From Candidatus Eisenbergiella stercorigallinarum (GTDB lineage Bacteria > Bacillota > Clostridia > Lachnospirales > Lachnospiraceae): a stretch of 33,911 nucleotides of DNA. The position numbers and the translations under genes were made by a program. This document shows positions 1,094 through 33,747 of this stretch, piece by piece. The notes beneath the pieces are model-generated. The model was not told the DNA's origin. It saw nothing but the letters and a program-made list of their open reading frames with translations, and did no database searches. The stretch lies in assembly GCA_019120525.1 (NCBI GenBank), contig DWUW01000154.1, positions 1 to 33,911 on the forward strand, read 5' to 3'. Position 1 is the first letter of the stretch, and the number at the start of each line of letters is the position of its first letter.

Positions 1094-2071
1094 CTACAAC
1101 TCCTCCCGCCTTCGGATCATGATCTCATTATACTTCATCATGCAGATCCCTTCCTCATAAGCCCCGATGGCTTCCTCATTGGGCTTTCCTTCCAGATTCC
1201 GGATGATCTGCGCGGGCACATTGACGCCGCATTCATACGCGTGCGGATAACCGCCGCCGAACCGGGGATTCACCTCTGAGATACAGTATTCGTCCCCGCG
1301 CCGGAAAATATCTATGTCAATGATACCACAAAAACCGACAGTTTCAACGAAATTTTTGATCAGGGAAAACAGCCTTTCGTCCTTCACGGAAACGGACTTG
1401 TCCGTTTCCCCGGCCCGCATCTTCAGCTTCTCCTTCACGAAAATGGAGGTCACCTTCTTCGTGATCATATCCACATACACGTCCGCGCCGTACTCCGTGC
1501 CGTCCATGTATTCCTGGATCATCATATCCTCCTGACAGCCGTGCAGGAACCGCACCGCTTCCAGCGTATCCGCCCGGCTGATGCCGATGCTGGCGCTTCC
1601 CTTCGCGGGCTTCACAAAGACGGGAAGCTTCACCTCTCCCGTATGAAGCGCCTCCTCAAAGGCGGCAAGATCCATGAAGCAGCGGCCCGTGGGGATCTGC
1701 AGCTCACACAGCTTCTGATACATCCGGAACTTATCAAAGGAGGTCTCCACCGCATCCAGGGAAGAAATCACAGGCGTGGTCCCCACCGCGAGAAACTCCT
1801 CCCGATGGCGGGCCAGAAGGGCCAGCTCCGGATCGATCAGGGAAAACACGCCGGTGATCTTCTTTTCCCTGCAGATGGAAAGGATTTTTTCCAGATAGCC
1901 CGGCTCCGTGATCCGCGGGACAAGGATGGCCTCATCCGCCTCATACAGGGCGGGGGCGAGGCTGCTGCAGTCCGTGGCGTACACCTTCCCTTTTCCCGCC
2001 AGCTCCTTCTTAAAATACTGCACCACCTTGTTGCGGGTGCCCGCGCTTAAGATCAGAAGATTGATTTCCAT
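1094..2071 (-). CDS. ATP-grasp (CarB-like) domain protein, putative carboxylate-amine/thiol ligase
   Basis: Motifs LPVFVKPAKGSASIGISRA, MMIQEYMDGTEYGADVYVD, FCGIIDIDIFRRGDEYCISEVNPRFGGGYPHAYECGVN typical of ATP-grasp; RBS ggaggtaatt before ATG. Confidence 0.85.
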   Translation of the reverse strand: MEINLLILSAGTRNKVVQYFKKELAGKGKVYATDCSSLAPALYEADEAILVPRITEPGYLEKILSICREKKITGVFSLIDPELALLARHREEFLAVGTTPVISSLDAVETSFDKFRMYQKLCELQIPTGRCFMDLAAFEEALHTGEVKLPVFVKPAKGSASIGISRADTLEAVRFLHGCQEDMMIQEYMDGTEYGADVYVDMITKKVTSIFVKEKLKMRAGETDKSVSVKDERLFSLIKNFVETVGFCGIIDIDIFRRGDEYCISEVNPRFGGGYPHAYECGVNVPAQIIRNLEGKPNEEAIGAYEEGICMMKYNEIMIRRREEL

Positions 2072-2092
2072 AATTACCTCCCTGACGCTGTC

Positions 2093-2731
2093 TCACAGCC
2101 TTCCTTCCGCCTCCGCCCTGGCCTTCCGGATCTGGGCCAGGTTTCCTTCGGAAGCCGACGTATCCTCCGCCACACCGGAGCGGTCGAAGACCGCCTTCAC
2201 CGTCATGACGAGCACCTTCACGTCCATGGCGAAGGACAGGTTCTTCACATACTCCACATCCTTCGCAAGCCGTCTGTCCCAGTCCAGAAAATTCCGCCCG
2301 GAAGCCTGGGCAAGACCGGTAAGGCCGGGCCTTACCGTGTGGCGCAGCCTCTCCTCTTCGGTGTACCAGGGCAGGTAGGAAACCAGCAGCGGCCTGGGGC
2401 CGATGATGCTCATATCTCCCTTAAAAATATTGAACAGCTCCGGCAGTTCGTCCAGGCTGGTGGAACGAAGGAACTTCCCGAAGGAGGTCAGCCGTTCTGA
2501 ATCCGGAAGGAGCTGTCCGTTCTCATCCCGCGCGTCCGTCATGGTGCGGAATTTGCACAAAGTAAAAATCTTCTCCTTCCGTCCCGGCCTCTCCTGATGG
2601 AACAGCACCGGGCTTCCCAGCTTCGTCCGCACCAGGACGGCCACGACCAGAAGCACGGGCGAGAGCACCAGGATCGCGCAGCCGGATAAAAGGATATCCA
2701 GCGCTCTTTTTCCAAATTTTCTGTAAAACAT
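2093..2731 (-). CDS. PglC-like bacterial sugar transferase (initiating phosphoglycosyltransferase)
   Basis: MFYRKFGKRALDILLSGCAILVLSPVLL...FHQERPGRKEKIFTLCKFRTMTDARDENGQLLPDSERLTSFGKFLRSTSLDELPELFNIFKGDMSIIGPRPLL. Start at 2731 with gggaggag RBS; the track ORF start at 3031 overextends. Confidence 0.9.
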   Translation of the reverse strand: MFYRKFGKRALDILLSGCAILVLSPVLLVVAVLVRTKLGSPVLFHQERPGRKEKIFTLCKFRTMTDARDENGQLLPDSERLTSFGKFLRSTSLDELPELFNIFKGDMSIIGPRPLLVSYLPWYTEEERLRHTVRPGLTGLAQASGRNFLDWDRRLAKDVEYVKNLSFAMDVKVLVMTVKAVFDRSGVAEDTSASEGNLAQIRKARAEAEGRL

Positions 2732-2774
2732 ACGCTCCTCCCTTCTGCCCGGATCCGCCCCGGCTCCGTTTCCG

Positions 2775-3956
2775 TCACACGAACAGCCCGCGCACCAGGC
2801 CGATGATCCGTTCCATGTCCTCCGGCGTATTCTTGATATCGCTGGGAAGGCACAGGCCGTGATAGAAGATCTTCGCTCCCACGCTCTCCGCGGGCGCGGA
2901 CAGATCCAGCGACTGCACGCTGCGGCCGTCCGCCCCCTTCCGGGATCCGTCCTTCGTGAAGAAATCCGCGCCCGCGAAAATGGGCTGCATGTGCATGGGC
3001 TTCCAGATGGGCCTGGTTTCAATGTTTTCATCGGAAAGCACGTCCATCACCCGGTCGGGCACAACGCCGCAGGCAGGATCGATGGTGATGCAGGAAAGCC
3101 AGTTGTTGGCCTCCCCGTCCGGGTTCAGGGGATTCATGGCAATGGCCGGGATATCCGCGAAGGCCTCCCGGTACTGCCGGTAGATCTCCTGCTTTTTCCG
3201 CTTGTGTTCCTCAATATGAAGGAGCTGGCCTCTGCCTACCCCGGCCGTGATATTGGACATCCGGTAGTTGAAGCCCAGCTGGGAATGCTGATAGTAGCGG
3301 GCCGCGTCCCTGGCCTGGGTGGAAAGGAACCTTGCCTTATCCACATATTCCTCATTGGCGGAAACCAGCATGCCGCCGCCGGAGGTGGTGATGATCTTGT
3401 TTCCGTTGAAGGAATAGATGCCGATGTCGCCAAAGCAGCCCGTCATCCTCCCCTGGAAGGTGGAGCCCAGGGATTCCGCCGCGTCCTCGATGAGCGGCAC
3501 GCCCTTCCGGTCGCAGATCTCGCGGATCCGGCCGATCTGGGCGGGGGTGCCGTACAGGTGGGCGCAGATCACCGCCTTCGCGTCCGGGTATTTTTCAAAG
3601 GCCGCCTCCAGCGCGTCCGGATCCATGTTCCAGGTCTTTTCCTCCGCGTCGATGAAAACCGGCACTGCCTTTTCATAGCAGATGGGATTGCAGGTGGCGG
3701 AAAAGGTCAGGTCGGAGGAAAACACCACGTCTCCCGGCTGAATTCCGATCAGCCGCAGGGCCAGATGGATGGCCGCCGTCCCGGCGCTCAGCGCCGCCGC
3801 GTGGCCGCAGCCCGTATATTCAGCCATTTCCTTTTCAAAGGCGTTCACATTCGGCCCCAGAGGAGCGATCCAGTTGGTCTCAAAGGCTTCGTTCACAAAC
3901 CGCTGCTCATCCCCGTGCATGGTAGGGGAAGACAGATAAATTCTTTCTTTTCCCAT
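2775..3956 (-). CDS. DegT/DnrJ/EryC1 aminotransferase, PglE-like
   Basis: MGKERIYLSSPTMHGDEQRFVNEAFETNWIAPLGPNVNAFEKE..., PLIEDAAESLGS, SFNGNKIITTSGGGMLVS closely resemble remembered PglE sequence. Start placed at MGKER rather than the track ORF start. Confidence 0.88.
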   Translation of the reverse strand: MGKERIYLSSPTMHGDEQRFVNEAFETNWIAPLGPNVNAFEKEMAEYTGCGHAAALSAGTAAIHLALRLIGIQPGDVVFSSDLTFSATCNPICYEKAVPVFIDAEEKTWNMDPDALEAAFEKYPDAKAVICAHLYGTPAQIGRIREICDRKGVPLIEDAAESLGSTFQGRMTGCFGDIGIYSFNGNKIITTSGGGMLVSANEEYVDKARFLSTQARDAARYYQHSQLGFNYRMSNITAGVGRGQLLHIEEHKRKKQEIYRQYREAFADIPAIAMNPLNPDGEANNWLSCITIDPACGVVPDRVMDVLSDENIETRPIWKPMHMQPIFAGADFFTKDGSRKGADGRSVQSLDLSAPAESVGAKIFYHGLCLPSDIKNTPEDMERIIGLVRGLFV

Positions 3957-4037
3957 ATCCTGTTCTCCATTTCCGTGCGGCTTTCGATCTGTCAAGGCCC
4001 TGCGCTGCCGCGCCATACGCAGAGCTGTCCGCTTCCG

Positions 4038-4066
4038 TAACAGTTCAGCCTTCGGCTAAACTGTTA
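4038..4066. repeat. Intergenic inverted repeat (12-13 bp arms, 3-nt loop) flanked by 9-bp direct repeats
   Basis: taacagttcagcc-ttc-ggctaaactgtta; the single mismatch becomes a U-G wobble in the minus-strand transcript. Flanked by tccgcttcc at 4028-4036 and 4067-4075. Confidence 0.7.
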
Positions 4067-4107
4067 TCCGCTTCCCGTCTTCGGCCCGCATGTCCGGCCG
4101 CCGGGCC

Positions 4108-4503
4108 TCAGCCCTCTTTCTCCAGAAGCTCGATCATCCCGGCAAAGCGGTTCATGAGAAAGCACACGCGCCTTCCGCCGATGGCCGGAGCTGGCACGGG
4201 AGAATCGATCTGCACATAGCCGGACCCGGTGAGCCGTTTCAGCTCCCCGTCCAGATCCTCGCACACATAGCAGATATGATAGGGAGCGTTCTTATAGGTT
4301 TTTAACAGCCCGGCAACCACGCTGTCCGGCGCGTTGGGGCTGACCAGCTCCACCACATAACCGTCCTTTTCCAGAAAAAGGATGTCCACCTTCCGGTATG
4401 TGTCGTCCGTAACGTCTCCCAGCCGGACATAGCCCAGCTTTTCAAATTCTTCCGCAGCCTTCTCCAGTTTTTTTACCAGATAGCCGATGTGATGTATCCT
4501 CAC
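4108..4503 (-). CDS. VOC-superfamily (glyoxalase / methylmalonyl-CoA epimerase-like) protein
   Basis: MRIHHIGYLVKKLEKAAEEFEKLGY...DILFLEKDGYVVELVSP...APYHICYVCEDLDGEL...; GTG start overlaps the upstream stop (GTGA). Confidence 0.8.
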   Translation of the reverse strand: MRIHHIGYLVKKLEKAAEEFEKLGYVRLGDVTDDTYRKVDILFLEKDGYVVELVSPNAPDSVVAGLLKTYKNAPYHICYVCEDLDGELKRLTGSGYVQIDSPVPAPAIGGRRVCFLMNRFAGMIELLEKEG

Positions 4504-6434
4504 GCTGATCCTCCCGTCCGTTTCGCTTCCTGTCTGGCCCGGACCGTCCTTCCGTCCTTCTTATAAACATAGGTGGGGACGATCTGCTGCACCAGAGGCC
4601 GGATATCCTCGACCTCATCCTTTGAGGCGTCCTCCAGCTTTTTTAGCTGGACGAAAAATTCGTCCTCGTCCAGCTCGATGGGCCTGCCGATATGGATGAG
4701 CTTATTCGCGGTATCCTGCATGCCCTCCTCATCCATCAGAAGCTCTTCATAAAGCTTTTCTCCCGGGCGGAGGCCCGTGAACTCGATCTGGATATCCTCG
4801 CCTACCTTGTAGCCGGATAAGCGGATCAGGTTTTTGGCAAGGTCCAGGATCTTCACCGGTTCTCCCATATCCAGGACGAAGATCTCTCCGCCCCTGGCGT
4901 AGGCCCCGGCCTGAAGCACCAGGGAAACCGCCTCCGGGATCGTCATGAAATACCGGATGATGTCCGGATGGGTGACGGTCACCGGGCCGCCCGCCGCGAT
5001 CTGCTTCTTGAACAGAGGGATCACGCTTCCGTTGCTCCCAAGCACATTTCCGAAACGGACCGCCACAAATTCCGTATCATAGTGCTTGTTGAAGGTCTGG
5101 ACGATCATCTCGCAGATCCGCTTGCTCGCCCCCATGATGTTGGTGGGATTCACCGCCTTGTCCGTGGAAATCATCACGAATTTGCGGCAGCCGTTGTTCG
5201 CCGCGGCATAGGCCGTCTTCCAGGTTCCGAATACGTTGTTTTTGATGGCCTCGTTGGGGCTAACCTCCATCAGGGGCACATGCTTGTGCGCCGCCGCGTG
5301 ATACACGATATCAGGATGATATTCGGAAAAAATGGCGTTCATCCGCTTTGTGTTGCGCACGGAGGCGATCAGCACCACAAGCTGCAGGTCCGGATGGTTC
5401 TGCAGCAGCTCCTGCTGGATATCATAAGCGTTATTTTCATAAATATCCACAATGACCAGCCGCGCCGGTTTATGCGTGGCAATCTGGCGGCACAGCTCGC
5501 TTCCGATGGAGCCGCCGCCCCCCGTGACCATGACCACCTTGTTCTGCACATAACCCAGGATGGAATCCAGGTCCACGCGGATGGGTTCCCTGCCCAGCAG
5601 ATCCTCCACCTCCACGTCCCGCAGCTTGCTCACGCTCACCTCGCCGTTGACCAGCTGGTACATGCCCGGAAGGGAACGCAGCTTACAGTTGGTTTCCTTA
5701 CAGATATCCAGGATATCCCGGATCACAGAACGGGGCGCGGAAGGGATCGCGATGAAAATCTCGTCGATATCGTAAAGGTCGGCGGATTCGATGATCTTGT
5801 CCCTGCCGCCAACCACCTTGATGCCCTGGATGAACTGGCCCCATTTCTGCCTGTCGTCGTCGATGATGCAGCGGATCACCATGGTGCTGTAGTTGCTGGT
5901 AACGATCTCCTTGATCAGCGCGTTCCCCGCTTCCCCGGCCCCGATGATCATGACGGAAATGTTATTTTTCCTGTTCTGCATCCGGTGCTTGCGGCCCCGG
6001 AGGAACCGATAGGAAAACCGGCTGATGAACAGGAAGGTGATCAGCAAAAACAGATACATGAAGTAGTAGCTGTCCGGCACAGGCTGTCCCGAGATCTTAA
6101 ACAGGTTCAGGCCGATCCCCGACACGATGGCGGACAGGAAGCAGGCGATCACCAGATTCTGCATCTCGTTTTCTCCCGCGAAGGCCCACAGGCTGTGATA
6201 CAGGCGGAAGAAGTAGAAGATCGCCACCGTCAGCAGGATGTTGAGCGGCAGGAAATTCCGCACGGGAAGGAGGAACTCGTCCGGAATGGCGTCCACATGC
6301 ATGTCGTAGCGCAGAAGCAGCGCCAGGAAGCTGGACGCGGTAATGCTCAGGATATCATACAGGATCAGCGCCGTCCTCCGGTAAAAAAGCTGATAATTAA
6401 AATATCTTTTTTTCGTTTTTTCTTTTTCCTGCAT
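4500..6434 (-). CDS. PglF/CapD/FlaA1-like membrane nucleoside-diphosphate-sugar 4,6-dehydratase
   Basis: N-terminal TM segments, CoA-binding-like IGAGEAGNALIKEI, then VVMVTGGGGSIGSELCRQIA, HKHVPLMEVSPNEAIKNNVFGT, FVMISTDKAVNPTNIMGASKR. Confidence 0.9.
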   Translation of the reverse strand: MQEKEKTKKRYFNYQLFYRRTALILYDILSITASSFLALLLRYDMHVDAIPDEFLLPVRNFLPLNILLTVAIFYFFRLYHSLWAFAGENEMQNLVIACFLSAIVSGIGLNLFKISGQPVPDSYYFMYLFLLITFLFISRFSYRFLRGRKHRMQNRKNNISVMIIGAGEAGNALIKEIVTSNYSTMVIRCIIDDDRQKWGQFIQGIKVVGGRDKIIESADLYDIDEIFIAIPSAPRSVIRDILDICKETNCKLRSLPGMYQLVNGEVSVSKLRDVEVEDLLGREPIRVDLDSILGYVQNKVVMVTGGGGSIGSELCRQIATHKPARLVIVDIYENNAYDIQQELLQNHPDLQLVVLIASVRNTKRMNAIFSEYHPDIVYHAAAHKHVPLMEVSPNEAIKNNVFGTWKTAYAAANNGCRKFVMISTDKAVNPTNIMGASKRICEMIVQTFNKHYDTEFVAVRFGNVLGSNGSVIPLFKKQIAAGGPVTVTHPDIIRYFMTIPEAVSLVLQAGAYARGGEIFVLDMGEPVKILDLAKNLIRLSGYKVGEDIQIEFTGLRPGEKLYEELLMDEEGMQDTANKLIHIGRPIELDEDEFFVQLKKLEDASKDEVEDIRPLVQQIVPTYVYKKDGRTVRARQEAKRTGGSA

Positions 6435-18680: not shown

Positions 18681-20444
18681 CTACCTCTCCCGCCGGATCT
18701 GTCCGTCCTCCACCCGGTAAACCATGTCGCATTTCTCGATGGTCTGCAGCCTGTGGGCGATGATGACCAGCGTCTTTTTCCCGTGCAGATGGTTGATGGA
18801 ATCCATGATGGCCGCCTCCGTCTCGTTGTCCAGCGCGGAGGTGGCCTCATCCAGCACCAGCACCTCCGGATCCTCAAACAGAGCCCTTGCGATGCCGATC
18901 CTCTGGCGCTGTCCGCCGGAGATGCGGATGCCCCGCTCCCCGATGCTGGTGTCCAGCCCCTCCGGGAGGCCGCGCACGAATTCGTCCAGCTGGGCTTCCT
19001 TCAGCGCCTGCCATACCTTTTCATCGTCGATCTCCTCGTCCGGCACGCCGAAGGCCACATTTTTGCGGATGGAAGAATCGATCATGAAAATAGTCTGGGG
19101 AATGTAGCCGATATTTTTCAGCCATCCCTCATAATGCTCCCTGACCTCCACGCCGTCCGCCAGGATCTGCCCCTCCTGGATGTGAAGAAGGCCGAGAAGA
19201 ATATCGATGATGGTGGTCTTTCCCGCGCCGGAGGTGCCGACCACGCCCACGGAGCTTCCCACCGGGATGGCCATCTGCGCGTGGTCAAAGATCAGCACGT
19301 CGCTGTTCGGGTAATGATAGACGATATCCTTCAGCTCGATTTTTTCATGGACCGGAAGCTTCTCCACCTCTTTTTTCTGCAGATAGGCCTGCGCGTCGTA
19401 GTTCACGCTGTCGTCGTGGATCTCCTCCTGCAGATTGTCGCTCACGCCCATGAAAAAGGGCTCGAAATAGGAAATGGAGGTCAGATAATTGTTGATCCGG
19501 TTGGCGCTGGGCAGAAGCCGCATGGCCGCCACCGCGAACACGCCGATCTGGGCGATCATGTCCGTCATGTCCCGCCCCGCCAGGATCTGCAGGATCAGAT
19601 ACAGCATCAGCCCCGCGATGCAGATCGTCTCGATCAAAAGCCTGGGGGTGGAGTTGTAGATGTTGTACTTCTGCACCGCGCCCACATAGCCCGCCCCGCA
19701 TTTGGCGTATTCGTTGATGAAATAGCTTTCCCGGTTGGCGATCTTGATCTCCTTGATGCCCATCACCGACTGGTCGATCCATTTGTACAGGCCGCTGTAA
19801 TAATCCTGATTTTCCTCGCCGGCCTTTTTCATGATGGGCTTGAGGATGTTCTTGATGACAAGAAGGACCGCCACAAGCAGGGCCGCGATCATCAGCGTCA
19901 TCAGAGGATCCTGCACCATCAGCACCGCGGTCAGGATCACAAACATGATGATCTCGCTGGTCAGCTGCAGACAGGCCAGGATCAGGCCGTACATGTTGTT
20001 CACGTCCGAGGTGATGCTCCTCTGGATCACGGAGGTGTCCGCGTTCAGATAATATTCATAGGGCCTCTGCATGAAATTGATCATCATCCGGCGGGAGGTG
20101 GCGAACTGATTGGTATAGACGAAGCGCAGCTGCACCACGTTCTGAAAATACAGGAATATATTTTTCAGCACAAAGGCCGCGATGATCGCCGCAAGCATCA
20201 GGATGGTGAACTGGGAGGCGCTCTCCAGCCCCAGAAAACGGTATATCTTCCCCAGATAACCGTCTCCCGTCACCTCCTCCGGGTCCAGAAGCGTCTGGAT
20301 CACCGGGATGACCAGGCCGATGCTGCAGGCCTCCAGAAGGGCGCCGATGAACATCAGCACGATGATCCCGCCCATCTTCGCCTTCTGCTTTCCGTCCAGC
20401 AGGACATTCATTTTCTTCAGTATCTTCTGCATGAAACTCTCCAA
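18681..20444 (-). CDS. ABC exporter (TMD-NBD fusion), PglK/MsbA-like
   Basis: Walker A GTSGAGKTT, signature ISGGQRQRIGIARAL, Walker B VLVLDEATSALD, H-loop IIAHRL; N-terminal TMD IVLMFIGALLEACSIGLVIPVIQTLLDP. Confidence 0.9.
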   Translation of the reverse strand: MESFMQKILKKMNVLLDGKQKAKMGGIIVLMFIGALLEACSIGLVIPVIQTLLDPEEVTGDGYLGKIYRFLGLESASQFTILMLAAIIAAFVLKNIFLYFQNVVQLRFVYTNQFATSRRMMINFMQRPYEYYLNADTSVIQRSITSDVNNMYGLILACLQLTSEIIMFVILTAVLMVQDPLMTLMIAALLVAVLLVIKNILKPIMKKAGEENQDYYSGLYKWIDQSVMGIKEIKIANRESYFINEYAKCGAGYVGAVQKYNIYNSTPRLLIETICIAGLMLYLILQILAGRDMTDMIAQIGVFAVAAMRLLPSANRINNYLTSISYFEPFFMGVSDNLQEEIHDDSVNYDAQAYLQKKEVEKLPVHEKIELKDIVYHYPNSDVLIFDHAQMAIPVGSSVGVVGTSGAGKTTIIDILLGLLHIQEGQILADGVEVREHYEGWLKNIGYIPQTIFMIDSSIRKNVAFGVPDEEIDDEKVWQALKEAQLDEFVRGLPEGLDTSIGERGIRISGGQRQRIGIARALFEDPEVLVLDEATSALDNETEAAIMDSINHLHGKKTLVIIAHRLQTIEKCDMVYRVEDGQIRRER

Positions 20445-20465: not shown

Positions 20466-21539
20466 TTATTTTTCGATCTGCTCGTTCTGCCTGTGGATCT
20501 CCGGCGCTTCGTACCGGTCCATGAAATCCTCTCCCAGGAAAACCTTTTCCCTGGCGAAATGGATGGAATCCGGCACCGTGAACACGGAGATCACCTTTTC
20601 CACCTGAATGTCCGGCAGGAAATTCATCATCTCCATGGGGAACTTCCCGGGAAGCACCACGCAGTCGGAAAACAGCTTTTCATAATCCAGTATATCCCGG
20701 GGATGGGGTTTTAAAATTACCTGCGCGCCCTGTCCGTACTGCGCGATGATATCCCGGAAGATCCGCTCTCTGGTAGCGAGGTCGCACAGAGGCTCCGTCA
20801 GGATCAGAATCTTTTTCTCATGATGCGCCCCTCCCGTCAGCTGACGGACCAGGGCTTCCTTATTTTCCAGAAAGATCCCAAGCAGGCAGTCCCTTCCCTG
20901 CGGCGTGACCGCTTCTGCCAGCTTCTCTCTGGGGCATTCGATGTATTTCGGGCAGGGATAAGGCAGAACGGAGATGTCGTTCACTTCCATATCTATGCAG
21001 TATTTCCCCCATCCATTCTGAATGAAGATCAGGTTCCGGGACGCAAGGAACGCTTTCAGCCTGAAATGTCCCCGGTTGTCGTATCTGGCCGTATCATAAT
21101 AGCGGATGCAGTCCAGCCCGTCCTCCAGGGCATGATAGCGGATCCGCTTCCAGCTTAAGTAATACCCGATGGGGTCGGAATCGCAGAACACGTAAATATC
21201 CCGGTACTTCCTGAAATCCACGGGAACATACGCCTCCTGCGCCGCGCCCAGCTTTTTGCAGAAGATCATGCGGGAAACCATGTTCAGCACGAGGTTCCCC
21301 CTGTCCCTGTGGTATTTTTCCAGGCCGGGGATCCGGCTTTCTTCCTGCTCGTCAAAGCGGAAGACCGCTCCGTACAGACCGCTTTTTTCCAGCCGATTTG
21401 CCAGGGATCCAAAGTCGCAGGACATGGCGCTCAGCACCATGTCCGCGCCGCCCCGTTCTCCTTCCGGAAGGTTCAGCTCCTTCAGGCAGGCCACATATAC
21501 ATGATAAAAGGTATGGCATACATAGATCCGTTCCTTCAC
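20466..21539 (-). CDS. Sialyltransferase-like glycosyltransferase (GT52/polysialyltransferase-like), candidate nonulosonate transferase
   Basis: N-terminal KERIYVCHTFYHVYVACLKEL; D/E-D/E-G motif in HALEDGLDC; HP motif in LKPHPRD. GTG start at 21539 preferred (ggaggagaagaat-GTG); ATG at 21581 is an alternative. Confidence 0.7.
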   Translation of the reverse strand: MKERIYVCHTFYHVYVACLKELNLPEGERGGADMVLSAMSCDFGSLANRLEKSGLYGAVFRFDEQEESRIPGLEKYHRDRGNLVLNMVSRMIFCKKLGAAQEAYVPVDFRKYRDIYVFCDSDPIGYYLSWKRIRYHALEDGLDCIRYYDTARYDNRGHFRLKAFLASRNLIFIQNGWGKYCIDMEVNDISVLPYPCPKYIECPREKLAEAVTPQGRDCLLGIFLENKEALVRQLTGGAHHEKKILILTEPLCDLATRERIFRDIIAQYGQGAQVILKPHPRDILDYEKLFSDCVVLPGKFPMEMMNFLPDIQVEKVISVFTVPDSIHFAREKVFLGEDFMDRYEAPEIHRQNEQIEK

Positions 21540-21595
21540 ATTCTTCTCCTCCCGCGGGCCGGTATCCGGAGCGTCCCGCATCCGTCCAGCTAGGC

Positions 21596-25379: not shown

Positions 25380-26438
25380 ATGGAAGACAGAAAAACGGTT
25401 CTGATACGGGCGGATGGGAATCCGGACATCGCCACGGGGCACTTGATGCGGTGTCTTTCCATCGCTGAAGCGCTGCGGGAGCAGGGAGCGCAGGCGGAAT
25501 TTGCCGTCGCGGATCCGGTCTCCGCCGGACTGCTCGCTTCTTTTTGGGAAGAAGAAAAGGCTTTTCCTGTCCATGTCCTGCATACGGACTATCGGAAGCC
25601 GGACGCGGAGCTTCCGGCCCTGGAGCGGCTGCTGGAAAACGGCCCTGCCGGACAGGCAGGCGGACGCTTCCGCTGTCTTCTGATCGATTCCTATTTTGTG
25701 ACGCCGCCATATCTGGAGGAGCTCAGGAGACTCCTTCCCACCGCTTATCTGGATGACCTGATGGCCTTCGACTGTCCGGCGGATCTGGTGGTCAACTATG
25801 ATTTCCTGCCGCCCCGGGATTTTTATTCCAAAGCGGGCAGGACGCTGCTGGGAGGCCGGTATACCCCCCTTCGCAGCCAGTTTTGCGGGCTTACCCCGGC
25901 ATTTCGGGAACAGGTGGGCAGCCTTCTGATCTCCACCGGAGGGACGGATGCCTGCAATGTGGCGGGACGGCTTGCAGCCTTCCTTCTCCTCGCCCCTCAA
26001 AGCGCCTCCTGGAAGATCCACGCGCTTACAGGCCCCATGCACGCACACAGACGGGAGCTTACAGCGCTTGCCGCAAAAGACCCCCGGCTGCAGCTGCATG
26101 AAAACGTAAAGGACATGGCTTCCCTCATGGCGGGCCGCGACCTGGCGGTATCCGCCGCAGGCACCACCCTGTACGAGCTCTGCGCCGCAGGCGTGCCGGC
26201 TGTCAGCTTCACCCTGGCGGACAACCAGCTTTCCTGCGCCCGTGACATGCAGCGCTTCGCGGGGGTTCCCTGCGCCGGTGACGCCAGACAGGAAAAGGAT
26301 ATCATCGAAACGCTTGCGTCCCTGCTTTTTTCCCTGGCAAAAAACAGGGAGAAACGGGATGCGCTGGCCCGCTCCATGCATGCCGCCGTTGACGGAAGAG
26401 GCGCGCAGAGGATCGCGCGCGCCCTGCTTGCGCTCTGA
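25380..26438 (+). CDS. pseG: PseG-like UDP-2,4-diacetamido-2,4,6-trideoxy-beta-L-altropyranose hydrolase
   Basis: MEDRKTVLIRADGNPDIATGHLMRCLSIAEALREQG...LLIDSYFVTPPYLEEL...AYLDDL...VVNYD...ISTGGTDACNVAGRL. Start at 25380 with aggaaaggg RBS; the track start at 25290 lies inside the leader hairpins. Confidence 0.87.
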   Translation: MEDRKTVLIRADGNPDIATGHLMRCLSIAEALREQGAQAEFAVADPVSAGLLASFWEEEKAFPVHVLHTDYRKPDAELPALERLLENGPAGQAGGRFRCLLIDSYFVTPPYLEELRRLLPTAYLDDLMAFDCPADLVVNYDFLPPRDFYSKAGRTLLGGRYTPLRSQFCGLTPAFREQVGSLLISTGGTDACNVAGRLAAFLLLAPQSASWKIHALTGPMHAHRRELTALAAKDPRLQLHENVKDMASLMAGRDLAVSAAGTTLYELCAAGVPAVSFTLADNQLSCARDMQRFAGVPCAGDARQEKDIIETLASLLFSLAKNREKRDALARSMHAAVDGRGAQRIARALLAL

Positions 26439-26581: not shown

Positions 26582-27349
26582 ATGCCGGAAACGGAACACA
26601 CATACAAAAACGATACCTCCCAAAATGATATCTGCGGAAACGATACCTGCAGAAACGCCGTCGCCATCATCACGGCGCGGGGCGGGAGCAAGCGCATCCC
26701 CCGCAAGAACATCCGGGATTTCTGCGGCCGCCCCATTCTTTCCTATTCTATCCGGGCTGCCCTGGAATCCGGCGTCTTTGACGAGGTGATGGTTTCCACG
26801 GACGACCCGGAGATCGCGCGGATCGCGGAGAAATGGGGCGCCGCCGTCCCTTTCTTTCGCTCCGGCGACACCGCAGGAGACTACGCTTCCACGGACGACG
26901 TGATCCTGGAGGTGCTGCGGGAGTATGAAAAAAGAGGCGTCCGCTTCCGCCGCTTCTGCTGCATCTACCCCACCGCCCCCTTCCTCACCGCTGACCGGCT
27001 TCGGGAGGCCATGGCCCTGCTGGATACGGCGGAGTCGGTGATGCCCGTGGTCGCCTTTTCCTATCCGCCCCAGCGCGGGCTGATCGTGGAACACGGACGC
27101 GTCCGGCGCAAATATCCGCAATATCAGAATACCCGGTCTCAGGATCTGGAGAAAATGTATCATGACTGCGGCCAGTTCTACGCCTGCCGCACGGACGCGT
27201 TCCTGCGGGATGGCACCACGGACGTGGAGGACCTGGTTCCCGTTTACCTCTCCGATCTGGAGGTACAGGATATCGACACCGAAGAGGACTGGGAAATCGC
27301 GGAGCTGAAATACCGCAGGCTCCATCCGACGGATTCTGCCGGGATATAA
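26582..27349 (+). CDS. pseF: PseF-like CMP-nonulosonate cytidylyltransferase
   Basis: NAVAIITARGGSKRIPRKNIRDFCGRPILSYSIRAALESGVFDEVMVSTDDPEIARIAEKWGA...RYPQYQNTRSQDLEKMYHDCGQFY-like pattern (here KYPQYQNTRSQDLEKMYHDCGQFYACRTDAFL). Confidence 0.88.
   Translation: MPETEHTYKNDTSQNDICGNDTCRNAVAIITARGGSKRIPRKNIRDFCGRPILSYSIRAALESGVFDEVMVSTDDPEIARIAEKWGAAVPFFRSGDTAGDYASTDDVILEVLREYEKRGVRFRRFCCIYPTAPFLTADRLREAMALLDTAESVMPVVAFSYPPQRGLIVEHGRVRRKYPQYQNTRSQDLEKMYHDCGQFYACRTDAFLRDGTTDVEDLVPVYLSDLEVQDIDTEEDWEIAELKYRRLHPTDSAGI
26609..26653. repeat. 15-bp degenerate tandem repeat (3 copies) at the 5' end of pseF
   Basis: aacgatacctcccaa / aatgatatctgcgga / aacgatacctgcaga encoding NDTSQ-NDICG-NDTCR. Confidence 0.75.
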
Positions 27350-27440
27350 TCTCCGCGGCAGCCGCCGGACGGATATGCAGAGACCTCTCCGCCCGGCCCC
27401 GCCGCCCGCAGGAATCAAACAATCAGGAAAGGAAACTATC

Positions 27441-28640
27441 TTGCAGCCATTAAATACCCCCTATTTTCATATTCAGGAAACGGATCTGGACAAGGACGTT
27501 TCCATTTTAAAGCAGGCCCTGACCGACAACTGGGGAAACTGGATCGTGGGCTATTCCGTAAAAACCAATTCCCTTCCCTGGCTTCTGTGCTACATGAAGG
27601 AGCAGGGCTTTTACGCGGAAATCGTCTCCGGGACGGAATACCGGCTGGCAAAAAGGCTGGGCTTTCCGGATGAACAGATCATCTATAACGGGCCGATCAA
27701 GGAAAAGCAGATTTTCACCGACATCCTTCTGGCGGGCGGCCTGGTGAACCTGGATTCCAGCGAGGAGCCCGTATGGCTTTCCGGGCTTTCCGCCCGCTTC
27801 CCCGACAGGACCTTTTCCGTGGGCCTGCGGGTCAACTGCGACATCGCCTCCCTCTGCCCGGAGGAAGTGCTTGTCGAGGAGGAGGGAGGCCGCTTCGGCT
27901 ACTGCTATGAAAACGGCGCGCTCGCCGAAGTCATCCGTTCCCTTCGCGCTCTTCCCAACGTGAGGATCGCCGGCCTGCACCTGCACTCCTCCACCCAGTC
28001 CCGCACGGTGAACGTCTACGCCGCCCTGGCCCGCACGGCGGTAAAAATCGCGCGGGAATACGACCTGAAGCTTTCCTATGTGGACATGGGCGGCGGCTAT
28101 TTCGGAGGCCGGGACGACAAGCCTGACTACCGGGACTATTTTCCCGCCATCTGCCGGGAGCTTCGTGCCGCTTTTAACCCGAAGGAAACCATCCTCATCG
28201 CGGAGCCGGGCGTCAGCCTGATCTCCCGCGCCACCACCTTCGCCACCACCGTCCTGGATGTGAAGCACATCCGGAACCACGTTTTTCTGGTGACGGACGG
28301 AAGCCGCACCAACTTAAATCCCCTGGTCACCAGGCACGTATATCCGCACCATATCGAATACGCGGACGCGCCGAAGGGCCGCCCGACGGTTCCCAGCCAG
28401 TGGGTGACCGGCTTTACCTGCATGGAATACGACCGCCTGTTTGAGATCAAGGACGGCCCCGCCCTGAAAAAAGGCGACCGGATCATCTACGATACCGCCG
28501 GCGGCTACACCATGTGCCTGAATCCTCTTTTCATCCATTATTTCCCTCCCGTCTGGGTGACGAAACGGGACGGAAGCCTGTTCAAAGCCAGAGAGCAGTG
28601 GGATGTGGAGGAATTCATGCAGAAAAATTATGTAAAATAA
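27441..28640 (+). CDS. PLP-dependent Orn/DAP/Arg decarboxylase-family (LysA-like) protein
   Basis: GYSVKTNS (PLP lysine), HLHSSTQS, YVDMGGGYFGG, EPGVSL, GFTCMEYDRL (cf. GPxCxSxD). TTG start at 27441 preceded by aggaaagga. Confidence 0.85.
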   Translation: MQPLNTPYFHIQETDLDKDVSILKQALTDNWGNWIVGYSVKTNSLPWLLCYMKEQGFYAEIVSGTEYRLAKRLGFPDEQIIYNGPIKEKQIFTDILLAGGLVNLDSSEEPVWLSGLSARFPDRTFSVGLRVNCDIASLCPEEVLVEEEGGRFGYCYENGALAEVIRSLRALPNVRIAGLHLHSSTQSRTVNVYAALARTAVKIAREYDLKLSYVDMGGGYFGGRDDKPDYRDYFPAICRELRAAFNPKETILIAEPGVSLISRATTFATTVLDVKHIRNHVFLVTDGSRTNLNPLVTRHVYPHHIEYADAPKGRPTVPSQWVTGFTCMEYDRLFEIKDGPALKKGDRIIYDTAGGYTMCLNPLFIHYFPPVWVTKRDGSLFKAREQWDVEEFMQKNYVK

Positions 28641-28641
28641 C

Positions 28642-28729
28642 GCTGTCAGAGCCCCCTGCAGGCCGTACCTGCGCGAATCCCGCCCGGCAGTCCGTGCCCT
28701 GCACGGAAAATGCCCGGAGCTTTGACAGC
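28642..28729 (+). promoter_or_regulatory. Predicted three-way-junction RNA structure in the decarboxylase-pseI spacer
   Basis: Outer stem GCTGTCAGAGC (28642-28652) / GCTTTGACAGC (28719-28729), 11 bp with one G-U; inner GCAGG-CCGTA-CCTGC (28658-28672) and CCGTGC-CCT-GCACGG (28692-28706). Confidence 0.65.
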
Positions 28730-28749
28730 CGGACAAGGAGATATGCTTC

Positions 28750-29802
28750 ATGAAAAAACAGTTTACCATCGGTTCCCGCAGCGTGGGAGAAAACTGCCCC
28801 GTTTTCATCGTGGCGGAAATGTCCGCCAATCACCTGCAGGACTATAACCGGGCCGTGGAAATCATCCATGCCGCGAAGGAGGCCGGAGCGGACGCCATCA
28901 AGCTGCAGACCTATACTGCCGACACCATCACCCTGGACTGCGATTCCCCGGATTTTCAGATCAACGAGGGAACTGTCTGGGACGGCACCACGCTTCATAA
29001 GCTGTATGAGGAAGCCTATACCCCCTGGGACTGGCAGCCGAAGCTGATGGAGGAAGCGAACCGGCTGGGACTGGAGTGCTTTTCCTCCCCCTTTGACGCC
29101 ACGGCGGTGGACTTCATGGCTTCCATGAACATGCCCGCCTACAAGGTGGCCTCCTATGAGATCACCGATCTTCCCCTCATCCGCCGGATCGCCCGCCTCC
29201 ATAAGCCCGTGATCCTGGCGACGGGCGTGGCGTTTCTTACAGACATCGAGCGCGCCCTCGCGGTCTGCCGGGAGGAAGGAAACGAAGAAGTGCTTCTGAT
29301 GAAATGCGTCTCCGCCTACCCCACTCCCTATGAGGATATCCACCTGAACATGATGCCCACCCTGGGCCGTACCTTCGGCTGCCTCACCGGCCTGTCCGAC
29401 CATTCCATGGGAAGCGCCGTGGCCACCGCCGCCACGGCCCTCGGCGCGCGGATGATCGAAAAGCACCTGACCCTGCGCCGGGCGGACGGCGGCCCGGACG
29501 GCTCCTTTTCCATGGAGCCGGAGGAATTCGCGGAAATGGTGCGAAACATCCGCGCGGTGGAAAAGGCGCTTGGCGATTCCGATTACCACCTCACCCCCGT
29601 TCAGGTAGTGGAGCACGGCGACTGCCGCTCCCTGTTCGCGGCGAAGGATATCGCTGAAGGGGAGACGTTTACGCCGGAAAACGTCCGTTCCGTCCGGCCG
29701 GGGAACGGGCTGCATACCATGTATTATGAAAAAATTCTCGGAAAAAAGGCGGCCTGCGCCATTCAGATGGGGACGCCGATGAAGTGGGAGCTGATTCGGT
29801 AA
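28750..29802 (+). CDS. pseI: PseI-like pseudaminic acid synthase (NeuB family, C-terminal SAF domain)
   Basis: FTIGSRSVGENCPVFIVAEMSANHLQDYNRAVEIIHAAKEAGADAIKLQTYTADTITLDCDSPDF...GLSDHSMGSAVATAATALGARMIEKHLTLRRADGGPDGSFSMEP...SLFAAKDIAEGETFTPENVRSVRPG. Confidence 0.93.
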   Translation: MKKQFTIGSRSVGENCPVFIVAEMSANHLQDYNRAVEIIHAAKEAGADAIKLQTYTADTITLDCDSPDFQINEGTVWDGTTLHKLYEEAYTPWDWQPKLMEEANRLGLECFSSPFDATAVDFMASMNMPAYKVASYEITDLPLIRRIARLHKPVILATGVAFLTDIERALAVCREEGNEEVLLMKCVSAYPTPYEDIHLNMMPTLGRTFGCLTGLSDHSMGSAVATAATALGARMIEKHLTLRRADGGPDGSFSMEPEEFAEMVRNIRAVEKALGDSDYHLTPVQVVEHGDCRSLFAAKDIAEGETFTPENVRSVRPGNGLHTMYYEKILGKKAACAIQMGTPMKWELIR

Positions 29803-29808
29803 AGTTAT

Positions 29809-29841
29809 GGAGCCGGCTGATGACCGGCTCCTGCTTTCTTA
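29809..29841 (+). terminator. Rho-independent terminator after pseI
   Basis: ggagccgg-ctgatga-ccggctcc perfect 8-bp stem followed by tgctttctta. Confidence 0.75.
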
Positions 29842-30099
29842 ATCGTCATAGTGTCCCAGACAGGAAATAATATAAATGATCCCGCCCTGCTCATAGTAAA
29901 CAATGCGGTTGGTTTCGTCAATACGACGGCTCCACAGGCCGCTCAGGCTGGCCCGCAGCGGCTCCGGCTTACCGATCCCTTCACAGGGACTTCTCTGAAT
30001 ATCCTTGATCAGCGCATTGATCCGTTTCAGCGTTTTTTTGTCCTGCGTCTGCCAGTACAGGTACTCGCTCCACGCCCGATCCTCCCACAACAGCCTCAT
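29839..30099 (-). CDS. YoeB/Txe-family type II toxin (mRNA interferase)
   Basis: MRLLWEDRAWSEYLYWQTQDKKTLKRINALIKDIQRSPCEGIGKPEPLRASLSGLWSRRIDETNRIVYYE closely matches remembered E. coli YoeB. Confidence 0.92.
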   Translation of the reverse strand: MRLLWEDRAWSEYLYWQTQDKKTLKRINALIKDIQRSPCEGIGKPEPLRASLSGLWSRRIDETNRIVYYEQGGIIYIISCLGHYDD

Positions 30100-30365
30100 T
30101 CGTCCACCTCTATCAGATCATGCTCGGCGAAATGCGCCTTGCCAGTCTTTACATCCTGCATGACGCTCTCCAGGTGGCGGAGATTGCTTTCCGAGTAAAA
30201 CGGATCAGCCGAAACCTCAAACGGTATGCGGTACTCTCTGCCGACCTTCTTTGCGAATATCGTAAAGGCCGCGCTCATGGAAAGGCCCATCTCGGTACAG
30301 GCCCGTTCCATTCTCTTCTTAACATCTTCATCCATCTTAATATTTACATTGACCATGTGTGCCAT
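30096..30365 (-). CDS. RelB/DinJ-family antitoxin
   Basis: VNVNIKMDEDVKKRMERACTEMGLSMSAAFTIFAKKVGREYRIPFEV; start at MAHMVN with ggaaaggag RBS; ATGA overlap with toxin. Confidence 0.87.
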   Translation of the reverse strand: MAHMVNVNIKMDEDVKKRMERACTEMGLSMSAAFTIFAKKVGREYRIPFEVSADPFYSESNLRHLESVMQDVKTGKAHFAEHDLIEVDE

Positions 30366-30389
30366 ATAGAACACTCCTTTCCCACCCAT

Positions 30390-30418
30390 AGTATATGCAA
30401 ATAGGAAGAAAAATTCAA
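30390..30418 (-). promoter_or_regulatory. Candidate sigma-70 promoter of the toxin-antitoxin module
   Basis: Minus strand TTGAAT-N17-TATACT upstream of the antitoxin start. Confidence 0.65.
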
Positions 30419-30428
30419 GCATTTTTCT

Positions 30429-30523
30429 TTACTTTTTCTGTAAATACTGTTGTACCTGACACAATAATACAAATACGGCTGTAACCGCGTAACAGCAGAT
30501 TACAACCGCAGAAATGGTACTTA

Positions 30524-30527
<4 letters not shown>
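30429..30527 (-). CDS. Putative 32-aa single-TM small protein overlapping the P-type ATPase stop codon
   Basis: GTG at 30527-30525 overlaps the ATPase TGA (GTGA); translates MISTISAVVICCYAVTAVFVLLCQVQQYLQKK-stop: one hydrophobic helix with basic C-terminus. Confidence 0.45.
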
Positions 30528-32419
<1,892 letters not shown>

Positions 32420-32939: not shown

Positions 32940-32974
32940 ATTGCGCGCGGCACAATGCCTGCGCGCAGCGCAAT
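32940..32974 (+). promoter_or_regulatory. Start-site-proximal dyad ATTGCGC...GCGCAAT
   Basis: attgcgc-gc-ggca-caa-tgcc-t-gc-gcgca-gcgcaat; nested stem structure, similar to the element upstream of pseG. Confidence 0.6.
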
Positions 32975-33018
32975 CCAGAAAGGGAAACGGCAGCAGGCGC
33001 TTCAGAACGGAGGTTCCC

Positions 33019-33747
33019 ATGTCAGAAAACAAACTACCTCACGACCATGGCCAGAAAATCGAACAGCAGACGGAAGAAATGCCCAGCGTGGATAATTTTC
33101 AGACCGTCGCGGAAATTTTCAAACAGCTTGGGGATGGAAGCCGGATCCGGATCTTCTGGCTCCTGTGCCACTGCGAAGAATGCGTTATCAACCTTTCCGC
33201 CCTGGTGGAGATGAGCAGCCCAGCCGTCTCCCACCACCTCCGGCAGCTGAAGGCCGCCGGGCTGATCGTCAGCAGGCGGGAAGGCAAGGAGGTCTATTAT
33301 AAGGCAGCGGAAACCGACAGGGCACAGCTTCTGCACCACATGATCGAAGATCTGGTACAGATCGCCTGCCCGTCCGCCCCTGAAAAGGAAATTCCCTGCC
33401 ATAACGGCGGCCAGGCCGAACTGATCCGCTCTATCCACGACCGCCTGACGCAGAATCCGGGACAGCGCTTCACCATTGAAGAGCTGTCCCGGGAATATCT
33501 GATCAATACATCTACTCTGAAATCCGTATTTAAGGCCGTCTATGGCCAGCCCATCGCCGCCTACATGAAGGAATTCCGCATGCACAGGGCCATGGAGCTT
33601 CTGCGCGGAACCGATATGCCCATTTCTGATATCGCGGCCGCCGTAGGATATGAATCCGCAGGCAAATTCACCAAAGCTTTTCAGGATGTCGCCCACGTCC
33701 TGCCTTCCGAATACCGAAAGCAGTTCCTCCGCGGGGAAATCCGATAG
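33019..33747 (+). CDS. ArsR/SmtB metalloregulator fused to a C-terminal AraC-type HTH domain
   Basis: ArsR part: FKQLGDGSRIRIFWLLCHCEECVINLSALVEMSSPAVSHHLRQLKAAGLIVSRREGKEVYY; AraC part: FTIEELSREYLINTSTLKSVFKAVYGQPIAAYMKEFRMHRAMELLRGTDMPISDIAAAVGYESAGKFTKAFQDV. Start at MSENK with cggagg RBS. Confidence 0.9.
   Translation: MSENKLPHDHGQKIEQQTEEMPSVDNFQTVAEIFKQLGDGSRIRIFWLLCHCEECVINLSALVEMSSPAVSHHLRQLKAAGLIVSRREGKEVYYKAAETDRAQLLHHMIEDLVQIACPSAPEKEIPCHNGGQAELIRSIHDRLTQNPGQRFTIEELSREYLINTSTLKSVFKAVYGQPIAAYMKEFRMHRAMELLRGTDMPISDIAAAVGYESAGKFTKAFQDVAHVLPSEYRKQFLRGEIR

Follow-up and report, generated by a model that had tools for sequence, protein, structure and literature searches.

Nonulosonic acids are sialic-acid-like surface sugars whose N-acyl groups shape charge and recognition. 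The canonical pathway to CMP-pseudaminic acid (CMP-Pse) comprises PseB, PseC, PseH, PseG, PseI and PseF and uses the flagellar Maf protein. Butirosin biosynthesis pairs the ATP-grasp ligase BtrJ with the alanine-racemase-fold decarboxylase BtrK. The BtrK step turns bound Glu into bound GABA, the Glu being held on a carrier (PMC7857480). BtrK belongs to a clade (FigC, SbnH, AcsE, MccE and BtrK) that decarboxylates conjugated amino acids, and FigC itself, an N-citrylornithine decarboxylase, acts on an amino acid after its coupling to a larger acid (PMC7857480). In Neisseria PglB2, an ATP-grasp/phosphoglycosyl transferase that makes GATDH, an ATP-grasp domain takes the place of the acetyltransferase (PMC11130364) and acylates the 4-amino sugar. 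Leg5GluNMe7Ac, from the flagellin of Clostridium botulinum, is a nonulosonate with a Glu amide (PMC5207245).

Here we describe a decarboxylase gene, under the working name DCX, in a 33,911-nucleotide stretch of DNA (the window) from Candidatus Eisenbergiella stercorigallinarum. The genome shares PseB, PseC, PseG, PseI and PseF with the canonical pathway, but PseI has no PseH as a neighbor, the set is enlarged by an ATP-grasp ligase and a PLP decarboxylase, and a GT52-type transferase in a polysaccharide-like locus is found where the canonical pathway uses Maf. With the FigC/FslC clade DCX has in common the alanine-racemase fold, the catalytic residues, the Met after the catalytic Cys and, if the role proposed below is right, the logic of decarboxylating an amino acid attached to something else. 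It differs from FigC in sequence (about 26% identity), in lacking the Arg of the EPGR motif, in having L360 and P362 at the positions of the citrate-binding R387 and N389 (a change to Leu and Pro seen in the DCX family) and in its setting among sugar-nucleotide rather than siderophore or antibiotic genes. The BtrJ/BtrK pair resembles the DCX module in composition, although the Glu of BtrK sits on an acyl carrier protein, whereas no carrier protein was noted at DCX, and BtrK is farther from DCX than FigC or LysA are. PglB2 has the same phosphoglycosyl transferase context as the group B DCX genes (see below), but it handles glycerate instead of an amino acid and has no decarboxylase. Leg5GluNMe7Ac is like the proposed product in that a nonulosonic acid bears a Glu-type amide at one of its amino groups, but it is legionaminic, flagellar and not decarboxylated.

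No report joining pseudaminic acid, ATP-grasp and a decarboxylase was found in the literature searched, which lay outside subscription journals. Papers retrieved for pseudaminic acid, Lachnospiraceae and decarboxylase were unrelated by title and abstract, and decarboxylases and ATP-grasp go unmentioned in the main text of a 2026 Clostridium NulO survey. As far as could be checked, the parts of the module are of known kinds, while their combination, the PseF fusion and the proposed tailoring step are undescribed.

The DCX gene

DCX is an intact 399-aa alanine-racemase-fold PLP decarboxylase situated between pseF and pseI (Table 1). Its matches to PF02784 (E 2.8e-21) and PF00278 (E 4.9e-7) are both above the cut-offs, so it is not a chance ORF; together with the matches of its neighbors to PseG, PseF and PseI, they confirm the original prediction of an intact Orn/DAP decarboxylase-fold gene on the same strand as the pse genes. 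All the motifs claimed for it (the PLP lysine K41, EPGVSL and GFTCMEYD) were also found. The likely start is the TTG codon behind AGGAAAGGA, while the in-frame ATG that opens the longer ORF would add 22 aa. The hallmarks of type III PLP decarboxylases are present, namely, the Pfam pair, Lys, His, an Arg151-type residue, the GGG loop, Glu, Cys and Asp, with the EPGR Arg as the exception.

Table 1 Features of the window, with the evidence for each assignment
Feature	Position	Strand	Evidence
PglF-type dehydratase, VOC protein, LegC-type aminotransferase, PglC-type transferase and PylC-like ATP-grasp ligase, in a row	1094-6434	-	
PylC-like ATP-grasp ligase beside PglC-type sugar transferase	1094-2071	-	Pfam/NCBIfam; same subfamily as the group B ligase
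ABC exporter travelling with the cassette	18681-20444	-	Neighborhood comparison
GT52-family (sialyltransferase-like) glycosyltransferase travelling with the cassette	20466-21581	-	PF07922, 33.8 bits
PseG, UDP-sugar hydrolase	25380-26438	+	TIGR03590, 170.4 bits (cut-off 153.55)
PseF, CMP-pseudaminic acid synthetase	26582-27349	+	TIGR03584, 276 bits (cut-off 205.7)
ORF holding DCX	27375-28640	+	ORF list
DCX, Pse-operon alanine-racemase-fold PLP decarboxylase	27441-28640	+	Pfam, NCBIfam, AF2, Foldseek
PLP Schiff-base lysine K41 (YSVKTN)	27561-27563	+	Invariant in 58/58; equivalent to FigC K63 (PMC7857480)
EPGVSL: Glu for PLP pyridine N kept, EPGR Arg (FigC R290) replaced by Val	28203-28220	+	Alignment
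R298 on the specificity 3-10 helix, aligned with FigC Y331	28332-28334	+	Alignment
GFTCMEYD motif	28410-28433	+	Sequence
CMEYD: catalytic Cys327, Met328 (as FigC C354-M355), Asp331	28419-28433	+	Alignment
PseI, pseudaminic acid synthase	28750-29802	+	TIGR03586, 469 bits (cut-off 340.3)
ORF resembling a RelB/DinJ-type antitoxin	30096-30422	-	By eye
Heavy-metal P-type ATPase	30524-32419	-	
268-aa ORF: ArsR-type repressor with C-terminal AraC-type HTH	32941-33747	+	By eye

Phylogeny and predicted structure

DCX scored far below the family cut-offs for LysA (TIGR01048, 123.5 bits against 297.9), FslC (NF041039, 129.7 against 500) and the CANSDC family nspC (47.8 against 409), and the acidic features of ODC/ADC/LDC-type enzymes are missing, with Met328 beside the catalytic Cys and Arg298 on the helix. 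The same genome carries a separate decarboxylase-fold gene (contig C170, locus L049) whose best family is LysA, at 252 bits over an alignment that starts at profile position 57 and leaves the N terminus uncovered. In a maximum likelihood tree from which wrong-frame and fragment rows were left out, the Pse-linked DCX genes formed one branch (support 100/100) inside a larger DCX branch (97/89), while the LysA proteins, including that of the genome itself, formed a separate one (91/88). FigC neighbored DCX with support of 91/82, which is not a strong value. Phylogeny thus gave DCX a clade of its own, apart from LysA, and not the placement that the original prediction had set against itself beforehand, i.e., within the LysA clade of a genome with no other lysA; a separate LysA is present on C170.

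Sequence comparison pointed the same way, with 249 bits to FigC versus 186 to LysA and 154 to BtrK. The AlphaFold2 model, built with 58 sequences, had a pLDDT of 93.6 and a pTM of 0.90, and Foldseek ranked FigC (PDB 7kh2) first among solved structures, ahead of LysA, D-ornithine decarboxylase and BtrK. FigC/FslC is the characterized enzyme nearest to DCX in sequence, tree position and predicted fold alike.

Genomic context and distribution

Within a family sample of 299 genomes, DCX relatives (at least about 37% identity) were found in about 15, indicating an accessory gene. In the closest group (52 to 66% identity), the order PseF-DCX-PseI-PseG recurred, and PseF and DCX were one protein in two genomes. 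Scanning about 85,000 species genomes yielded 365 relatives, the best 80 of which, all from Lachnospiraceae genera or unclassified Clostridia (MAGs), provided 79 loci with a readable DCX. In 71 of these 79 loci (fusions included), PseF and/or PseI lay directly beside DCX on the same strand (PseF in 59 and PseI in 62), and PseF was fused N-terminally to DCX in 20, mostly from Butyrivibrio. Among the 53 loci of this set that are flanked by 9 kb or more on both sides, PseF was present in 49, PseI in 48 and PseG in 48, and 47 had the ligase described below as ATP-grasp2 within about 10 kb, the same number as for the GT52 transferase; the loci are interrelated, so that these counts represent nonindependent events. 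Arrangements also vary, with PseI divergent, PseF moved or PseF fused, indicating that the linkage outlived rearrangement.

Recurrent linkage to pseI, which had been put forward as a check, is therefore found in dozens of genomes, and the contrary outcome named with it, a linkage peculiar to a single genome, did not materialize. Membership of DCX in the Pse pathway is strongly supported, and it is very probable that DCX is a dedicated enzyme of a variant of this sugar pathway. Its fusion to PseF suggests that it acts at the Pse or CMP-Pse stage. The GT52-family transferase is the likely user of the CMP-Pse product.

Two further arrangements were seen. PseF and PseI were fused into one 589-aa protein in one locus (L175, 8809-10578), and in L032/L094 the neighbors of DCX are genes for an aspartate-dehydrogenase-like protein and a D-2-hydroxyacid dehydrogenase.

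More distant, older DCX genes have other neighbors. In group B (37 to 52% identity), DCX adjoins a PylC-like ATP-grasp gene and in many cases also a bacillosamine-type (PglC-type) phosphoglycosyl transferase (L038, L040, L041, L043 and L181), which in L043 is fused to DCX, and in L128 the order is PseC-DCX-ATP-grasp. In a third group (L046, L047 and L182), DCX is flanked by an HpcH/HpaI-type gene on one side and a phosphoglycosyl transferase on the other. Taken over these contexts, the constant companions of DCX are enzymes of the sugar-nucleotide or phosphoglycosyl type, in most cases together with an ATP-grasp ligase. The row of HpcH/HpaI aldolase-like gene, distant DCX and PglC-type transferase of the third group occurs in different families of the phylum, the aldolase-like gene having a Pfam match in L046 and L047. 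In the window itself, the PglF-to-ligase cassette (Table 1) has its ATP-grasp ligase where the PglD acetyltransferase would be expected, an arrangement to be compared with PglB2.

Active site

We aligned 58 DCX homologues and compared their active sites by using the FigC numbering (PMC7857480). The PLP lysine, the pyridine-N Glu, the stacking His, the Arg near the PLP hydroxyl, the catalytic Cys and the following Asp were kept in all 58, and nearly every homologue kept the glycine loop. The EPGR Arg is missing family-wide, being replaced by V in 41 and I in 4 of the 45 Pse-linked members; the remaining homologues have T, I, N, M, S or A instead. The replacement of EPGR by EPGVSL had been read correctly in the original prediction, but it is shared by the whole DCX family and not unique to this gene; a lesion of the window copy is thus ruled out. 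In FigC this residue (R290) contributes to the binding of the PLP phosphate and extends toward the amide of the substrate (PMC7857480). Its loss is unusual for the fold and counts against decarboxylation of a conjugate.

Of the 58 homologues, 56 have Met directly after the catalytic Cys, as FigC does, whereas in ODC, ADC and DAPDC an acidic residue (Asp) at this place binds the side-chain amine (PMC7857480). At the position of FigC Y331, all 45 Pse-linked members have Arg and the group B proteins have Lys (nine) or His (one); R289 is kept in 54/55. R298 and Y330 are characteristic of the Pse-linked clade. Judged from the alignment, these residues would speak against basic free amino acids and citrylornithine as substrates and in favor of an anionic conjugate.

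ATP-grasp ligases and PseH

The ligase that accompanies DCX, ATP-grasp2, is absent from the window contig and is found in the same genome on contig C45, followed by a GT2 gene, PseC (472 bits, cut-off 423.5) and PseB (537 bits, cut-off 408), so that PseB, PseC, PseG, PseI and PseF of the CMP-Pse pathway are all in the genome above the NCBIfam cut-offs. In a sister Eisenbergiella contig (L050), a stretch similar to positions 26653 to 32419 of the window continues into one similar to positions 2739 to 6158 of C45, indicating that, in the sister genome at least, the window contig and C45 correspond to two halves of a single superlocus. ATP-grasp2 is an intact ATP-grasp protein, with the fold and motif residues present in the alignment; its AF2 model (pLDDT 91.3) was nearest in Foldseek to the ATP-grasp structure 4dim and to L-amino acid ligases.

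In the family sample, ATP-grasp2 was found in 8/8 genomes with a Pse-linked DCX and in 6/59 other PseI genomes (Fisher P = 5e-7), where the relatives were weaker (34 to 43%). The PylC-like ligase of the window is disfavored as the partner of DCX, since it belongs to another subfamily, and it is ATP-grasp2 that tracks the Pse-linked clade. Decoration of the nonulosonate together with an ATP-grasp ligase, as originally proposed, is thus the best-supported reading, with the correction that the ligase is not the PylC-like one of the window. In three loci (L173, L175 and L177, from genomes G218, G094 and G157), the gene after ATP-grasp2 encodes a class III aminotransferase of the omega-amino-acid type, with no DCX beside the ligase; L173 and L175 have this pair within pse clusters.

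PseH was found within 10 kb of PseI in none of the 8 DCX genomes and in 28 of the 59 DCX-free ones (P = 0.017), a weak contrast because the other 31 are likewise without it, which rules out a missing PseH as a DCX-specific signature. The window has a PseH-like GNAT (90.7 bits, cut-off 93.1) 16 kb away beside WecE, which could still serve as PseH. ATP-grasp genes near PseI were found in 1/15 PseH-positive loci (15 of the 28 were sampled), 15/31 loci with neither PseH nor DCX and 8/8 DCX genomes (Fisher P = 0.0006), by using a profile built from the same families and counting two genomes (G000 and G037) that carry the gene on another contig than PseI. PseH and ATP-grasp are thus anticorrelated in Lachnospiraceae PseI loci (L172 to L178 and L183 to L222), a pattern that fits ligases replacing PseH, much as the ATP-grasp domain of PglB2 replaces an acetyltransferase, and suggests that they often do so in this family. 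Where no PseH was recognizable, the ATP-grasp genes near PseI were of several subfamilies.

Proposed role of DCX

From similarity and gene context, we infer that DCX may be a conjugate decarboxylase of the FigC-SbnH-BtrK type. This reading is favored because FigC, its nearest enzyme, and the FigC clade decarboxylate conjugated amino acids, because Met replaces the amine-binding Asp and a basic residue lies on the specificity helix, and because of the linkage to PseF, PseI and ATP-grasp2, the PseF fusion and the phosphoglycosyl transferase-DCX-ATP-grasp cassettes. The presence of ATP-grasp genes near PseI where PseH is missing and the precedents of PglB2 and Leg5GluNMe7Ac also speak for it. The ATP-grasp ligase encoded on C45 would take an acidic amino acid, in the simplest case Glu or Asp, and couple its side-chain carboxylate to an amino group on Pse or on the 4-amino-sugar precursor of Pse, probably where PseH would acetylate (C4 in the UDP-sugar, C7 in Pse). 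DCX would then remove the free alpha-carboxylate of the conjugate at about the PseI/PseF stage, leaving an omega-aminoacyl amide of the 4-aminobutanoyl or 3-aminopropanoyl type, and the CMP-Pse with its positively charged substituent would pass to the GT52-type transferase and to export. We hold this mechanism, with its order of steps taken from relatives and fusions, with moderate confidence. Glu or Asp as the donor is a tentative choice: for a PLP decarboxylase to act, the alpha-amino and alpha-carboxyl groups must both be free, so that attachment would be via the side-chain carboxylate, for which these are the simplest donors. Besides the lost EPGR Arg and the PseH-like GNAT, two points argue against the proposal. 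The L-amino acid ligases nearest to ATP-grasp2 by fold usually activate the alpha-carboxylate, which would leave none for DCX, and PseH replacement, given the DCX-free genomes without a nearby PseH, is not specific to DCX.

The same genes would be needed if DCX acted before ligation on a free amino acid (for example, converting Asp into beta-alanine, Glu into GABA or a diamino acid into an amine), with the ligase attaching the product. The class III aminotransferases that follow ATP-grasp2 could supply an omega-amino acid in another way, and DCX adjoins the aspartate-dehydrogenase-like gene in L032/L094, both in keeping with this order. We nevertheless consider it rather unlikely, as the nearest relatives act on conjugates (PMC7857480), the site lacks the amine-binding Asp and has basic residues on the specificity helix, unlike the Orn, Lys and Arg enzymes, and the DCX fusions among the loci examined (the best 80 of 365 and the family sample) are with sugar enzymes (PseF and the phosphoglycosyl transferase) and none with the ligase.

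The family-wide loss of the EPGR Arg, in a fold that also hosts racemases, might reflect another PLP reaction on the substituent (epimerization, retro-aldol cleavage or transamination), and the PseF fusion could be structural, with DCX as a noncatalytic partner. Both ideas appear improbable against the retention of the decarboxylase-site Lys, Glu, His, Gly loop, Cys and Asp in essentially all 58 homologues and the scores of both decarboxylase Pfam domains. Service to another glycan, that of the PglF/LegC/phosphoglycosyl transferase/ATP-grasp cassette, with the place in the pse operon due to translocation, is more doubtful still: the sister group B adjoins the same types of transferase and PylC-like ligase, and the cassette of the window has no DCX of its own, but the Pse-linked clade is a separate branch (100/100) with its own ligase, PseF fusions and residues R298 and Y330. 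A displaced housekeeping LysA or polyamine decarboxylase, to which DCX is similar at the fold level, can be dismissed on the LysA cut-off, the separate LysA, the clade of its own and the accessory distribution.

Returning to decarboxylation of a conjugate, it is quite possible that a two-enzyme module of ATP-grasp ligase and PLP decarboxylase decorates amino sugars with omega-aminoacyl groups while they are nucleotide sugars, with a Pse branch (including a bifunctional PseF-decarboxylase) and a bacillosamine-type branch. Such a module would represent an undescribed class of sugar tailoring and would give Gram-positive gut commensals positively charged surface nonulosonates; the common gut inhabitants Eisenbergiella, Butyrivibrio and Parablautia would make free-amine Pse by a route absent from the literature found. 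If the proposal is right, it points out an enzyme with a readily testable substrate; a decarboxylase family now filed as LysA-like also receives a name and a test.

Other genes of the window

Downstream from PseI, the heavy-metal P-type ATPase gene sits beside the 268-aa ORF on the opposite strand, in which an ArsR-type repressor and a C-terminal AraC-type HTH were recognized by eye. This pair is located inside the pse superlocus and recurs in L050. The small ORF resembling a RelB/DinJ-type antitoxin is found in the same part of the window.
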